Of a stretch of 35,001 bases of DNA, positions 29,065 through 35,001 are shown one piece after another. The stretch lies in NCBI GenBank assembly GCA_020629615.1, contig JAHDCZ010000024.1, positions 1 through 35,001 of the forward strand, written 5' to 3'. The notes beneath the pieces are model-generated. The model saw only the letters and a list, made by a program, of their open reading frames with translations, was not told the DNA's origin and did no database searches. A program made the translations under genes and the position numbers. The stretch comes from Saprospiraceae bacterium (GTDB lineage: Bacteria; Bacteroidota; Bacteroidia; Chitinophagales; Saprospiraceae). Within the stretch, counting starts at the first letter, position 1, and each line of letters starts with the position of its first letter.

Positions 29065-31338
29065 CTAAAACTTAATGAGTTTTGAATTGTATTGATGTTG
29101 GGATGAAATTATAAAATATATTCCAGAAGGAAACGATTGTAGATCGATGAACTCATCCATTGAATTAAATTCTCCCATTTTTTGCATGGTAGAACTATAG
29201 ATTTCCAAATTGTAATCCAATGAATTGATGTTTTTGATGAACACTTTATCATTGGTAGGATTAGGATAAAACAATAGCTCGTTTTCTGCGGATAAAAGAT
29301 GACTAGAATTGATGATTCCCGATTCAGATATATTCGTTTCAAACATACTAAGTCCACCTCTTCTATTTCCGAGAATTAAATTTAAACTGCCGTCAGAATC
29401 TATATCACTAAGACTTGGACTAATTAATTCGCCATCCCATATATCTCCCCAGTAATCATGTAATTTTTCAAATGGAGTTGTAATATCTGATGTGTCCACC
29501 AGATGAACATAAAGACCGCTATTTTCGGACCCAGATATAAAATATAGGCTATCACCTACGGTTTGAAGGATCGGAGCACTACTGCCTCCAGGAAAAGTAG
29601 GTTTTCTTGTGTTTATTCCTCCAAAACTTGGAAAAAAAACGCCTTGGCTTTCATCCATTTCAAAATGTGGAATTTCGTTTGATCCCGTATTTACAAAATA
29701 GTTGATGTTTCCTAAAACCATCTCTTGAGAAAGATTCAAATTCCTCTCGCCGACAAAAAGATCTAGATCTCCATCTTCATCGAGGTCGTATAGAGTCGGT
29801 TTCGAGAAAGCTCCAACGTCGATCTCAAAATAAAAATATACAGGTTGCTCAAATTTTATTTCACTTTCGGTACTGATATTTTCAGAATAGTAAAGCACTC
29901 CAGTGTGGTCACCTACGATGGCATCAAGGTCGCCATCATTGTCGAGATCACCAAAACAGGGTGCAAAATTTTTCGATTCATTAGAAAACTGTGCATATTC
30001 CATAAAATCCGTATCAAACAATTCAAATTTCGGTGTATTGGGACTACCAGTATTTTTATATAAGACAATTTTTGAAAGTTTACCTTCGATTTCATCATGT
30101 ATACCGCTCGTTCCTACGACCAAATCAGTTAAGCCGTCATTGTCAATATCAACAAAGCATGGAGACGTATCACTACCCAGATCGATCGTTTCTTCAACCA
30201 AGAAATCATTTTGTAACCATTTGAAATCTGATTGTCCATTGGATTCTAGATTTTCATAAATGTGCATGCAAGAATAATTATCTGTGAGACTAATGCTGTT
30301 CGGAGCACATATCAAGTCAAGGTCGTTGTCGTTATCAAAATCTATTTCATAAACTGCGGGAAAATTAAATAGGTCAATGGGAACATCGTTTTGGGGATAA
30401 TCGTCTTCTAAAATGGTAAACCAAGCATTATCAGTTCCTTGTGCGTTGAACAAAGCTTTTATTTTATCAGAGAAGATATCACCAATTAAAACATCAATAG
30501 TAGAATCATTGTTGAGATCGAGTGCAGTCGTAGTTGAACCAGCATGAACTCTATTGTCAGAATCGGTTTCACCTTTAAATCCACTTGCACATTCCGAAGA
30601 CACCGTACTTAAACTTATTGTTGTACTTTCTGACGCTTCCGCGAATTTACCCCAACATGGGTCTTGGACAATAAATTTTAGTGAATCGGAAGGTAAATTG
30701 AGTTCTTGAGAGACATTCTTGTAATAAACTAAACTAGTGCCTTCAGTATCAAATGTAAGAATGTCTAAATCACCATCTAGATCAATGTCTTTAATTTCTG
30801 GTTTGTCCATGTGAGACGAAAATATTAATTCATGGCTGTCATCTGAATTTATTGTATACAATAAACCATTTTCGCTATTTGCAGTGGGGTATTCAGTGAA
30901 GCTTAATTTTCCATTGTTAAATTGTCCTTTAAATAATTTTATTCCGTCCGTATTGTTTTCTGTTCCCCAGGTGAATACGTCAATAATTCCGTCCTCGTTG
31001 AAATCTCGGCAAATCACCCATCGTTCAAAATCAATGAATGCTTTACTCAATTCTTGCGAGTATTCATATTTGAATGATTCAGAATTATCATTGAATAAAA
31101 ATACGAGCGGTACATTCCCATAACGGTCAAATATGATCAAATCTTGACTGCCATCGTTATTCAAATCGTGATTGAATAATTGAGGTGAATTAAATCCTCC
31201 CGTAAAAGGAATCGATAAATCAATACCCAATTGGCTCACCTCACATTGATATCTTTTAAAAACATCTTGGGCCTGTATGAATTGGAGTTGCATAGATATC
31301 ACTACAAACACCACAACAAATTTTAAGTTAATTCTCAT
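29065..31338 (-). CDS. FG-GAP/VCBS repeat protein with T9SS type A sorting domain
   Basis: 757 residues if started at the ATG at 31338, which begins a good signal peptide ([16 protein letters not shown], cut near FIQAQ); an ATG at 31350 adds four residues. At least nine calcium-binding loops are visible ([89 protein letters not shown]), suggesting one or two integrin-alpha-like propellers. A type A sorting domain closes the protein ([14 protein letters not shown] to NSKLIKF). Surface adhesion or carbohydrate/protein binding is inferred. It is the first gene of a possible two-gene unit with pepT. Confidence 0.92.
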
Positions 31339-31514
31339 TATTGAAAGCAAATGAAGATTTAAATAATATTAAAAGATTACTAATATGGTCGGGTCTATAA
31401 AAATACTACTTTTAAAGGAATAGAACATTTGTAATTACCTTGTTTTTGCGCTTAAAAAGGCTTGTTTTAATATCATTCTTAGTAATTTACAAGGCAAAAT
31501 TTTTTTATTTGGAT

Positions 31515-32498
31515 ATGGATAATTCTAAAACTTTCTCCGAAATACAAGCATTCTATTTTGATTATTTTTTAGGAGCAATACAAAAGTTTTCAACTGAAAA
31601 TCCTTTTTTGTTGGTTACCGTTTGCTTACTACTCGCTTTTATATTAGAAATTAGTCTTCCTAAAAGGATTGAGTATGATAGAGTGAAAAGAAAGGGATTT
31701 GTAATCGATTTATTCTATTTTTTCATATATGATTTTGTCATATTTTTTTTGGGCCTATATGCAGTGACCTATGTTTTAAATAACTTGTTCTACTCAATTA
31801 TAGGTGGTCTTGGACTGGATAAGGCCAGTTTGCAAATTTTTGATATTCATGGATTACATATTGTATTTCAGATAATTATTCTTTTTGTCATCGTTGATTT
31901 TTTTGAATGGTTTGCTCATTTTTTAATGCATCGATTTGATTTTTTATGGGCGTTTCATAAAATTCATCATGCCCAAGAAGAAATAGGAGTTTCTTCATCT
32001 CGTCATTTTCATATTTTGGAATTTTTTGTGTTTAAACCAATAGTATTCTTGCCAGTTAGTCTTATTGGGTACACTACTTCGGAATATGCCATTTATACAT
32101 CATTCTTTATTGTTTTTGTCGCGTTTTTTACTCATGCGAACGCTAAAATTCCTTTAGGGAAGCTTAATTTATTGATTAATTCTCCCAATACCCACATATG
32201 GCATCACGCTCAAAATGTACCTGAAAAATTTAGATATGGAGTCAATTTTGCATCAGTTCTTAATATTTGGGATGTTCTATTAGGGTATTATTATTTGCCT
32301 GATGACAGTAAAAATCCACAATTGGGAATTTGGGATATGGAGGAAGTTCCCAAAACAATATGGGGACAGTTTTTTTATCCTTTTAAATACCTCTTTACGA
32401 AGAAATGGACTAGCAATCGGTTTGATGTCATCCCTAAAGAATTCATTAAGTTAAAGAAAAGAGCCAAAAAGAAGGCGAGTAAGAAAGCCCAAAAGTAG
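31515..32498 (+). CDS. Sterol desaturase / fatty acid hydroxylase family membrane di-iron enzyme
   Basis: 327 residues from the ATG at 31515 (MDNSKTFSEIQ); a start at 31440 would add 25 residues and cannot be excluded. The three histidine boxes of the family are present: HFLMH (31917-31931), HKIHH (31956-31970) and HIWHH (32193-32207), with an extra HFH between the second and third. Four to five hydrophobic spans precede and separate the boxes. The C-terminus is a Lys/Ala-rich tail (KKRAKKKASKKAQK). Known: members use O2 and a di-iron centre to hydroxylate or desaturate lipids. The substrate here (fatty acyl, carotenoid or sterol-like) is undetermined. The stop lies one base from that of the next gene. 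Confidence 0.88.
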   Translation: MDNSKTFSEIQAFYFDYFLGAIQKFSTENPFLLVTVCLLLAFILEISLPKRIEYDRVKRKGFVIDLFYFFIYDFVIFFLGLYAVTYVLNNLFYSIIGGLGLDKASLQIFDIHGLHIVFQIIILFVIVDFFEWFAHFLMHRFDFLWAFHKIHHAQEEIGVSSSRHFHILEFFVFKPIVFLPVSLIGYTTSEYAIYTSFFIVFVAFFTHANAKIPLGKLNLLINSPNTHIWHHAQNVPEKFRYGVNFASVLNIWDVLLGYYYLPDDSKNPQLGIWDMEEVPKTIWGQFFYPFKYLFTKKWTSNRFDVIPKEFIKLKKRAKKKASKKAQK

Positions 32499-32499
32499 A

Positions 32500-34065
32500 T
32501 TAAAACTTTTTGGCGTTCTTTATAATATTATGCCTGTTGGTAATTAAAAAATCTTTCTTTAAATACTCAAGGATAGGTCTGTCATCTACCAAATAAACTG
32601 AATCAGAATCCAATGGGAATTCAAAAATGTGTTTAGGATTAAATATTAATTGGCTGTATTTGTTTTGAAGACAGCAGGTGTTGAATTTTTTCGGATCGAG
32701 ACTGCTAAAGTTTACTTCTTGATTTAATTTAGAAACAAAAATTAAATCATCCATTTGATTAATTTGGTTCCCAATTATTTTTGGCTTAAATCCGGAATGA
32801 AGCAAAGTTTGGTATACTAAATATCCTGGATTTTCTTTGTTTTTTTCTAAATGACTTTGAAAGTTAATAACGAACAAACCATTTCTTTTCAGCTTACTTT
32901 TGATGGTTAAAAAGTTTTCCAATGTGTAAAGGTATGTCGGTTGATTTTCAGATGCAGAAATATCAAGAATGATCATATCATATTTTTTATCCACCTTTCT
33001 GATAAAGTGTCTTGCGTCATCTTCAAAGAAATTGATCTTTTTGGCATTTAGATAAAAGTGATCAGAAGAGACATCTAGCATTCTTTTATCAATATCTACA
33101 ACATCAAGATTATGATCAAACCGAAGCAGTTCATTGACAAGAGCTCCACCAGCAAGACCGCATAACAAAATATCTTTTTGCCTTTCTAGCATTGTGGATA
33201 TAGATGAAACAATATGGACGTATTTATATTTGGAATCTACGGTAAGATCACCACCTTTTATTACAGATTGGGGTATGTTGTTTACATTTAAGATTCTATC
33301 AAATTGAATGCCGTTATGATGTTTTTGATCTATTACTTCGATCTTGCCTAGTAATCCTTCACTAGAGTGTACAATGGTATAAGTATCGTTATCAAAATCT
33401 GAATTCACAGCTAGACTTGTAATATAAATGCCGGCGCTCAGCAAAAGGGTAAGCAGATTATATTTTGAAACTCCGTAAAACATGAACAGAGCTAAAAGAC
33501 ATATCACGAATATTAAGAGTAGGGAATTGCTTACACCGAAAAGCTCAATGAAAATAAATCCAAATAGCAAAGTACTGATAACACCAGACAAAGCAGAAAT
33601 TGAAAAAATACGTCCAATAATTGCAGAATCTTTACTCCTTCTTTTTTCTAATAACTGAATCAGAATAGGAGGGATTGAAGCTAAGGAAGTAATTGGAATA
33701 AAGAGGAGTAAAAAGAGAGTTACAAAATTAGATACTGTAAAATGATCTAATATTTTTGCTAATGGTAGAATGCTTTGCAGAATTAAAAAATCTATGGCAA
33801 CGCCTAAAGTAAGAACCATTAACAAGTAGTTTAGGGTTTGCTCAATATTCTTTTTTTTACAAAAGTATCCCCCAACAAAATACCCGATTGACATAAAAAA
33901 CATTGTCAAAGCAATTGTCTGTGTCCAAGTAGGTAGACTGGAACCAAAAAAGGGTTCGATGGATTTACCAATAAGTAATTCTAAAGCCATAATTATAAAT
34001 CCTTCCAAACTAGCAAGAATGAAAATGTCAGAAATCTTTATTCGGCTCTTTTTCAATTTATTCAT
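32500..34065 (-). CDS. Membrane protein fused to a spermidine-synthase-like domain
   Basis: 521 residues: about six to seven hydrophobic spans (residues ~13-215) followed by a cytosolic Rossmann domain like spermidine synthases (from about residue 235). The nucleotide-binding loop reads GLAGGAL rather than GGGDGG, followed by VVDIDKRMLDVSS and FFEDDARHFIRK. Where true spermidine synthases have a DSSDP-type polyamine/gate segment, this protein has LDISASENQPTYLYTLENF. The fused membrane/spermidine-synthase architecture is widespread but of unknown function. I infer it is not a polyamine synthase but a SAM- or decarboxy-SAM-binding enzyme acting near the membrane. It overlaps the upstream thioredoxin-like gene by 8 bases. 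Confidence 0.85.
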   Translation of the reverse strand: MNKLKKSRIKISDIFILASLEGFIIMALELLIGKSIEPFFGSSLPTWTQTIALTMFFMSIGYFVGGYFCKKKNIEQTLNYLLMVLTLGVAIDFLILQSILPLAKILDHFTVSNFVTLFLLLFIPITSLASIPPILIQLLEKRRSKDSAIIGRIFSISALSGVISTLLFGFIFIELFGVSNSLLLIFVICLLALFMFYGVSKYNLLTLLLSAGIYITSLAVNSDFDNDTYTIVHSSEGLLGKIEVIDQKHHNGIQFDRILNVNNIPQSVIKGGDLTVDSKYKYVHIVSSISTMLERQKDILLCGLAGGALVNELLRFDHNLDVVDIDKRMLDVSSDHFYLNAKKINFFEDDARHFIRKVDKKYDMIILDISASENQPTYLYTLENFLTIKSKLKRNGLFVINFQSHLEKNKENPGYLVYQTLLHSGFKPKIIGNQINQMDDLIFVSKLNQEVNFSSLDPKKFNTCCLQNKYSQLIFNPKHIFEFPLDSDSVYLVDDRPILEYLKKDFLITNRHNIIKNAKKF

Positions 34066-35001
34066 TTACATGATTAATAATAAATTCACTTAATTCTTCT
34101 CGTTGAGGATTTTGAGCTAATACTTTTCCTGATGGATTAAGAATATATACAGAAGGTATAAAGTTATGAGGAACAAGACGTTTTAAGTTATTATCTGCAC
34201 CTTGCTCCAAGCAAAAGTCCAAAATTTCATCATTCAAGTATTCTTCTGAAAATCTTTTCCATTCTCGCATATCCTTATCCACACTTATAGCAATAATTTG
34301 GTAGGGAAGTTTTGAATTCTTTAGAGCATTCTTAACGTTTTCTATTTCTTGCTTACTGCTCCAACAATCGGATTTTAATAACATCAAAATGATATTTGAT
34401 TCAAGGGAAAGGGATTCTTTTAAATCTCCACTCAAATAATTGTCTAGGGCTTTTAAATCAAGATGAGAATTTGTTGATGCATTCAATTTCTGGATGAGTT
34501 GATCTTTTAATATTATTTCATATTCATTAGATACATCAAATGGTATTTTTTTTATAAATTTCATTAATCCAAATTGATCTTCCTTCGGATTTAATTGATG
34601 CAAAGCAAAAAGTTTTAGGACATTATTAGGTTCTGATTCAGCATATGATTTTTGAAAATCTTTATAAGTGGCATATAAACGATCATAGTTTTCTTCTGCT
34701 GAACTTTGATAGACCTCCCCACTAAAATTTAAGGTGTTAGTTACCAATTCTTTTGTCAATATATCACCGGCTTTTTTTAAATCTTCAAAAATTCTATTTG
34801 ATTCTAAATAATAGTCTTTTAGTTTAATAGAATTCTCGTTGCCTTCTACCGTGTAATTATTGAAGTCTCTTTGAGTTGTGTTTACGACAAGCTTATTTCC
34901 TTTTTCCAAGAATAGATAAATGTAAGTGTCATATTTTTGATTGTGTATCGCATAAATTCCCGATCCATACACGAGATCTTTCTTAAATTGAAATGAATGA
35001 T
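34058..35001 (-). CDS. Thioredoxin-like protein, N-terminus outside window
   Basis: The frame is open to the right edge (GTG at 34972 is internal), so the N-terminus is missing. The visible N-terminal part is beta-rich (YGSGIYAIHNQKYDTYIYLFLEKGNKLVV), resembling the DUF4369-type domain found before TlpA/AhpC-like domains in Bacteroidota. A helical linker and then a thioredoxin-like fold follow (NIILMLLKSDCWSSKQEIENV, IIAISVDKD, FIPSVYILNPSGKVLAQNP with the cis-Pro preceded by Ile). The redox motif is CWSS (34355-34366): the resolving cysteine is replaced by serine. A role in thiol chemistry, isomerase-like rather than disulfide-reducing, is inferred. It probably forms an operon with the next gene (8-base overlap). 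Confidence 0.78.
   Translation of the reverse strand, partial: HSFQFKKDLVYGSGIYAIHNQKYDTYIYLFLEKGNKLVVNTTQRDFNNYTVEGNENSIKLKDYYLESNRIFEDLKKAGDILTKELVTNTLNFSGEVYQSSAEENYDRLYATYKDFQKSYAESEPNNVLKLFALHQLNPKEDQFGLMKFIKKIPFDVSNEYEIILKDQLIQKLNASTNSHLDLKALDNYLSGDLKESLSLESNIILMLLKSDCWSSKQEIENVKNALKNSKLPYQIIAISVDKDMREWKRFSEEYLNDEILDFCLEQGADNNLKRLVPHNFIPSVYILNPSGKVLAQNPQREELSEFIINHVNE

Follow-up and report, generated by a model that had tools for sequence, protein, structure and literature searches.

The window analysed here is one entire contig (JAHDCZ010000024.1; G000:C106 in our genome set) of a Saprospiraceae bacterium, 35,001 bases long with no sequence beyond its right edge. Close to that edge, on the minus strand, lies a gene (positions 32500-34065) for a 521-amino-acid protein, here called FULL, which joins seven transmembrane (TM) helices to a domain with the spermidine synthase fold. 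It shares 8 bases (34058-34065) with a thioredoxin-fold gene on the same strand (34058-34999), an overlap that a first-pass annotation of this DNA had already described. We propose tentatively that FULL is an extracytoplasmic, S-adenosylmethionine (SAM)-dependent transferase acting on the N-termini of exported proteins, carried on a major facilitator superfamily (MFS) body and assisted by a redox helper, a reading that may well be right but that we stop short of calling probable. A role for FULL in modification of the cell envelope is, in broader terms, likely. What was computed is the fold, the number of helices, the bias of charges, the conserved site, the order of genes and the statistics of N-termini; how SAM is supplied, which group is transferred and what the thioredoxin does we infer.

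Window FULL scored above the cut-off of NF037959, "fused MFS/spermidine synthase" (128.7 bits, cut-off 40), matched PF01564 at 45.1 bits and remained below the cut-off of the polyamine aminopropyltransferase family NF002956 (52.7 bits, cut-off 472). A structure model based on a 62-row alignment (predicted local distance difference test score, pLDDT, 90.9; predicted template-modelling score, pTM, 0.89) contained long helices over residues 11-221 (33403-34035, minus strand), which we read as seven TM helices, a half MFS fold plus one helix. Residues 225-521 (32503-33393, minus strand) formed a complete spermidine synthase fold, matching 3gjy with Z 23.8 and a root-mean-square deviation (rmsd) of 3.5 over 252 aligned residues, in agreement with the fused architecture given by the first-pass annotation. 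Because this domain filled the list of fold matches, the MFS fold was not visible there. It was visible in the model of L076 (pLDDT 84.8, pTM 0.82), a natural fusion of FULL with a six-TM half-transporter, here called HALF: residues 18-422 matched both 6zgs, an MFS transporter (Z 31.2, rmsd 3.1, 340 aligned), and VMAT2 (9kq8; Z 31.0, rmsd 3.5, 345 aligned). These matches indicate that HALF and the first six helices of FULL would make one 12-TM MFS fold, with TM7 as a thirteenth helix. Both termini of MFS proteins are cytoplasmic, so that the domain following TM7 is expected in the periplasm.

The distribution of charges is consistent with this predicted periplasmic location. Altogether 81 FULL proteins were found, 74 of them distinct; the loop-charge count used 63 of these, and the 62-row alignment (A2) omits truncated, 12-TM and distant members. 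Lysine plus arginine was more abundant in loops 2-3, 4-5 and 6-7 than in loops 1-2, 3-4 and 5-6 in 63/63 rows (means 6.8 vs 1.8). The FULL domain is poor in cysteine, with 0.44 per 100 residues when the C-terminal Cys-Cys pair is left out of the count and 0.61 when it is included (62 rows), compared to 1.28 in nine soluble paralogues. The identical charge bias was present in 13/13 PRK03612-type relatives, fused aminopropyltransferases of the canonical kind in which the motif-I acid is intact (L238, at G000:C190:14109-15632, and 12 more), and their catalytic domain may accordingly be periplasmic too.

The active site of FULL departs from that of spermidine synthase, in which decarboxylated SAM (dcSAM) is bound by an acid in motif I, according to passages of PMC10349129. 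Both altered motifs listed in the first-pass annotation, GLAGGAL and LDISASENQP, were found in window FULL. GLAGGAL corresponds to residues 303-309 (33139-33159, minus strand), with G306 at the position of the GGG(D/E)G acid; this position was Gly in 52 and Ala in 10 of the 62 rows, leaving no row with the dcSAM-binding acid. The DSSDP-type substrate motif was likewise absent and a D.....E..P pattern stood in its place, within LDISASENQPTYLYT (residues 367-381; 32923-32967, minus strand), where D368 and E373 were present in 62/62 rows, as were N262, G303, G307, D326, D350, R352 and D494. Position 324, at the end of strand 2, was Glu in 49 rows and Asp in 13. Loci L069-L136 had been preselected by a peptide pattern around DDARH, which in part predetermines the counts at D349, D350 and R352; those at G303, G306, G307, D326, D368, E373 and D494 are unaffected. 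The invariance of this alternative site means that the active site of FULL is different rather than decayed, and on this ground a pseudo-enzyme was rejected. The canonical residues are thus missing, as the first-pass annotation held, including the dcSAM acid, but not through decay; judged from the alignment, the altered motifs are the rule within the FULL family and no local loss. Close relatives restored neither GGGDGG here nor CxxC in the thioredoxin, a restoration that the first-pass annotation had named as evidence against its reading.

These residues also bear on a function in polyamine metabolism, in which FULL would be an MFS carrier of polyamines whose domain is either an aminopropyltransferase or a relic that binds polyamines, with the thioredoxin as a passenger. 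The spermidine synthase fold, the amine transporters among the MFS fold matches and the retention of two acids near the substrate side (D368 and E373) fit such a device, but it lacks the motif-I acid for dcSAM in all 62 rows, a PRK03612-type gene elsewhere in the genome retains that acid, and the start residues of PID-CTERM proteins described below would go unexplained. We consider it unlikely, and polyamine synthesis by window FULL was not our first choice because of the missing dcSAM acid. The name of NF037959, to which window FULL belongs by score, implies polyamine synthesis, yet FULL carries half of an MFS fold and has no dcSAM acid. PRK03612 and NF002956 proteins resemble FULL in TM part and charge pattern and retain the GGG(D/E) and DxPDP that FULL lacks; all 13 PRK03612-type rows had Asp or Glu at the motif-I position, although 8 of them were chosen by requiring GGG(D/E)G, leaving just 5 independent for that motif. 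SpeE shares the fold of the FULL domain, which has neither the dcSAM acid nor the DSSDP-type motif, and passages on bacterial aminopropyltransferases in PMC11107197 mention no transmembrane fusion.

The proposal that FULL acts on N-termini draws on the start residues of exported proteins. In Bacteroidota most signal peptidase I substrates start with Gln, which is converted to pyroglutamate (the Q-rule; passages of PMC5837995 and PMC10653852). FULL relatives were found in 72/395 genomes of the class, with FULL status defined as a match of alignment A5 at E <= 1e-60, and PID-CTERM proteins were present in 59/72 genomes with FULL vs 124/323 without (Fisher p 1.2e-11). Mature PID-CTERM proteins were read as starting with Gln at 1/47 sites in genomes with FULL vs 27/40 in genomes without (p 1.1e-11). 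The cleavage rule used for these readings took no account of the start residue itself, and 87 of 90 PID-CTERM loci gave readings, the 90 consisting of 30 returned by the search and 60 selected for the presence or absence of FULL without regard to start residue; in each of the two groups, two genomes contributed two readings. The blind rule misreads sites in both groups. With FULL, 33 of the 47 sites read Ala, Gly, Pro or Ser, one Gln and 13 another residue, these 13 mostly being early sites by eye, and among the 13 non-Gln readings without FULL seven have a Gln a few residues on (L272, L275, L280, L335, L339, L348, L350). Non-Gln exceptions as read, in genomes where FULL was not found, were G663 and G539; G651 and G685 also read non-Gln (genomes 71 and 73% complete), as did G754, which contains a stretch matching FULL positions 2-46 only. 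A wholesale loss of the Q-rule in FULL organisms is ruled out, since other signal-peptide proteins of FULL loci keep Gln at 41/99 sites near FULL and 51/116 far from it.

Related genomes dominate this sample, and the thioredoxin pairing described below is confined to one clade of four, so FULL and non-Gln PID-CTERM proteins might simply be co-inherited without a functional link and the thioredoxin-FULL order be chance synteny in a small clade. Fisher tests ignore kinship, and the permutation that we used accounts for it at the family level only. Within the four families having both states (28 rows) the link nevertheless persisted at p 1e-4, and family f55 contained nine non-Gln readings with FULL and five Gln readings without; the five f55 genomes scored without FULL had no FULL homologue at E <= 1e-10. 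With the recurrence of one N-terminal motif in unrelated FULL-adjacent proteins and the overlaps between HALF and thioredoxin genes (both below) also speaking against it, such a lineage effect appears very unlikely.

Exported proteins adjoining FULL often appear to have unusual N-termini (MGGP, GGPP or Cys-His). Three unrelated kinds of such protein were seen. S8 proteases with an I9 propeptide were found beside FULL in 17 rows, 15 of them distinct, and the junction between propeptide and protease domain read MGGPPG in 16/17 and EGGPPGGGG in 1/17. MGGPP was found at none of six distinct and one more distant S8 junctions among the nearest homologues in 30 genomes outside the 51 FULL positives, a comparison for which the loci of 7 of 21 matches were read. 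S8 lipoproteases beside FULL (L054, L055, L086, L090 and others) often end in DGxVxxDPDGNxDPIAHx. Cys-rich secreted proteins in L097 and L234 begin MGGPGGGGGGD after the signal peptide. Across 396 genomes of the order, MGGPxGGG occurred at 29 sites in 28 genomes; 9/29 were <=1 kb from FULL and belonged to two unrelated kinds of protein, six S8 proteases and three Cys-rich proteins. All of the remaining 20 sites came from genomes that gave no FULL match; they comprised 13 in linkers (presumably of FtsH-like proteins), two in C-terminal tails and five others. A loose GG pattern was more frequent near FULL (16/195 vs 8/266 far, p 0.018), with several of the far and some of the near hits proving false when read. 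Seven PID-CTERM proteins were located in FULL loci, and five of these begin with Gly, Thr or Ala with GPP-type runs by eye.

The PID-CTERM association also allows for a modification elsewhere on the exported protein or peptide, on a side chain or at the C-terminus after exosortase action, or on a lipid, with start residues changing for another reason. XrtX was found beside FULL in five loci (NCBIfam confirms the two tested), PID-CTERM genes adjoin FULL in some loci, and the co-occurrence of FULL and PID-CTERM given above is equally in line with this explanation. Against it, the difference falls exactly at the start residue, and MGGP stands at the processing point in both the S8 proteases and the Cys-rich proteins next to FULL; we therefore hold this alternative to be improbable.

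The gene order around FULL includes further candidate components. In two loci from the window's genus (L049 and L050) and in a metagenome-assembled genome (L069), the order is HALF, thioredoxin, FULL, and HALF and thioredoxin genes share 11 bases in L049 and 4 bases in L069. In L050 the HALF frame continues into the N-terminal domain of the thioredoxin, with a lipoprotein-like signal at the place of TM7 in FULL; a 10-base N gap lies further down. The window carries the last two of these three module genes. The first-pass annotation suggested that neighbours beyond the right edge may complete the pair, but the window is the whole contig, nothing follows, and the contig stops within the thioredoxin gene, whose 5' end is therefore missing. 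Elsewhere HALF lies directly before FULL with no thioredoxin between (L073, one L110 pair, L206, L208), faces it (L096 and the other L110 pair) or is separated from it by one small open reading frame (L085), and HALF also occurs without a nearby FULL (e.g., L060, L063). Single-chain HALF-FULL proteins of 725-764 amino acids, with 13-14 crude TM segments, were seen in L076, L204, L231 and L232.

The thioredoxin of the window matched PF13905 (30.3 bits, cut-off 27), and its active site reads CWSS instead of CxxC, as reported by the first-pass annotation, at residues 212-215 of the partial protein (34355-34366, minus strand). All four sequences found share C212, S215 and P282, which we take to be the cis-Pro, so the suggested conservation of the lone Cys holds; their active sites are CWSS, CWSS, CKHS and CYSS, and none of the four has CxxC. 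Two intact relatives of 375 and 378 amino acids have a lipoprotein-type signal, which the truncated window copy lacks. DUF4369 passed its cut-off of 25 bits in L049 and the L050 fusion frame; the L069 score, 18.6 bits, fell short of it. Fold, invariant Pro and, in the relatives, the lipoprotein-type signal are shared with the TlpA-like thioredoxin lipoproteins of Bacteroidota (PF13905 with DUF4369), the difference being CxxS rather than CxxC in 4/4.

Thioredoxin and FULL genes were adjacent in all four loci of the closest clade (window, L049, L050, L069), whose FULL members form one clade with a support of 0.81 in a FastTree phylogeny. This clade lies in a larger type B clade (support 0.87) in which 16/19 members have a C-terminal Cys-Cys pair, at residues 464-465 of window FULL (32671-32676, minus strand) and invariant in 13/13 rows of A5; the rest of the family is separate. 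Weaker thioredoxin matches in other loci did not adjoin FULL, being two genes off in L222 and further away in L086. The recurrent pairing suggested by the first-pass annotation thus exists within this clade, whereas gene maps gave HALF as the commoner partner of FULL; they show thioredoxin beside FULL only in the window clade, which rules out a general thioredoxin-spermidine synthase pair. The envelope-modification role at which the first-pass annotation hinted fits better than polyamine synthesis, but a dedicated pair is too wide a description outside this clade.

A secreted protein beside the module in L049, L050 and L069 has a mature N-terminus that reads KA/CH, the slash marking the start of the mature protein. 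In G001 and G002 the module-adjacent KA/CH protein was the only such signal-peptide protein (20/23 sites read). Over three genomes of the genus the pattern gave 33 sites, 30 with loci, and 8 frames with a preceding hydrophobic stretch, of which only the module-adjacent L395 and L396 resemble signal-peptide proteins.

Taken as a transferase for exported N-termini, FULL would consist of a cytoplasmic N-terminus, six half-MFS helices, a seventh helix and a periplasmic domain with the spermidine synthase fold. A second six-TM half, supplied by an adjacent gene, another copy or a fused segment, could complete the 12-TM fold, and this MFS body would pass SAM or its product across the inner membrane. 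The domain, having no dcSAM acid, would take a group from SAM, most probably a methyl, and place it on the alpha-amine of the newly exposed N-terminus, working like fungal NHMT in the endoplasmic reticulum (below). For the window clade the likely client would be the secreted protein that starts with Cys-His. By forming a mixed disulfide, the CxxS thioredoxin lipoprotein would protect the Cys of this client or the Cys-Cys pair of the enzyme. A thiol step is plausible from the N-terminal Cys, the CxxS thioredoxin and the Cys-Cys enzyme that occur together in three loci. In a more specific and more doubtful form, which we regard as no better than a fair guess, FULL would provide exported proteins of Bacteroidota with a second N-terminal capping system beside pyroglutamate, in which the MFS body delivers SAM across the inner membrane and the clients are recognisable by (M)GGP or A(G)PP starts, Cys-His being the mark in the window clade, where a monothiol thioredoxin would guard the N-terminal Cys.

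Several observations weigh against a role in N-terminal modification. The presence of SAM in the periplasm is not established. The canonical PRK03612-type relatives share the predicted topology, which alone is therefore no pointer to such a role. One genome, G423, has both FULL and a Gln start, and two of the seven PID-CTERM proteins in FULL loci (L058, L099) read as Gln starts by eye. GPP is no hallmark of the PID-CTERM proteins in genomes with FULL, since the signature was equally common without FULL (7/15 in both groups), and the CH pattern was not enriched near FULL (4/195 near vs 3/266 far, p 0.46). In the window genome (G000, 79% complete) no HALF was found, no PID-CTERM protein was seen, and no KA/CH protein was seen among 10 sites.

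The closest architectural parallel is fungal. NHMT (AN4663) of Aspergillus nidulans is described, in the passages of PMC10349129 on which this comparison draws, as a 558-amino-acid protein of the endoplasmic reticulum (ER) with seven TM helices and a spermidine-synthase-like domain, which methylates the N-terminal His of secreted lytic polysaccharide monooxygenases. Its motif-I acid is replaced, by which its authors exclude spermidine synthesis; methylation is lost when the TM part is removed, and the authors note that the ER supply of SAM could be limiting (PMC10349129). FULL too has seven TM helices (about 215 residues) followed by a spermidine-synthase-like domain lacking the motif-I acid, and its Glu or Asp at position 324 can be equated with NHMT E340 by motif, not by alignment. 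NHMT works in an export compartment, and its substrates are secreted proteins; FULL is likened to it by architecture and not by direct sequence comparison with AN4663, and membership in NHMT is therefore not claimed. NHMT differs in being a single gene in the fungal ER, with no half-transporter or thioredoxin partner reported in those passages, which call its 7-TM part unique to filamentous fungi and without a good fold match. The L076 model suggests why such a match would be lacking: one chain would hold a half-transporter plus a helix. The FULL domain also matches METTL13 (5wcj; Z 17.8, rmsd 2.9, 183 aligned; profile E 1.1e-11), the N-terminal methyltransferase of elongation factor 1 alpha (passages of PMC10349129), whose matched chain has no membrane part. 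The Q-rule and glutaminyl cyclase likewise concern a periplasmic protection of the N-termini of exported proteins (passages of PMC5837995 and PMC10653852); enzyme and start residue are different there, and the proposed FULL system would be an alternative.

FULL proteins form a widespread, little-studied family under a name that implies polyamine synthesis, and no paper on the bacterial fused family was recognised in the literature searched. Should the proposal be right, bacteria use a SAM-type enzyme beyond the cytoplasm to modify exported N-termini; SAM would then have to cross the inner membrane, and the half-transporters would be its way through. The proposal would also account for the many PID-CTERM proteins that depart from the Q-rule, and the architecture of fungal NHMT would gain bacterial counterparts.

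Strong FULL relatives were found in 30/396 genomes of the order (E <= 1e-70; one is a half only), and Bacteroidota, going by record titles, accounted for 56/68 loci of FULL relatives in a named collection. No viral relative was found in one scan of viral contigs. The FULL genes of L107 and L116, from Kiritimatiellae and Sericytochromatia records, fall inside the Bacteroidota family in the tree, a placement that suggests transfer or misbinning. L080, L097 and L234 contain tandem FULL genes, a type A gene and one of the Cys-Cys type (in L080 only the end of the first is present), followed by a secreted protein of 119-123 amino acids and a Cys-rich protein, also secreted, with an MGG start. In the window, a fatty acid hydroxylase gene (31440-32498, plus strand; PF04116, 82.8 bits) converges on FULL and ends one base before the FULL end, and a gene for an FG-GAP repeat protein with a type IX secretion tail (29065-31350, minus strand) has homologues that are also near the module in L049 and L050.

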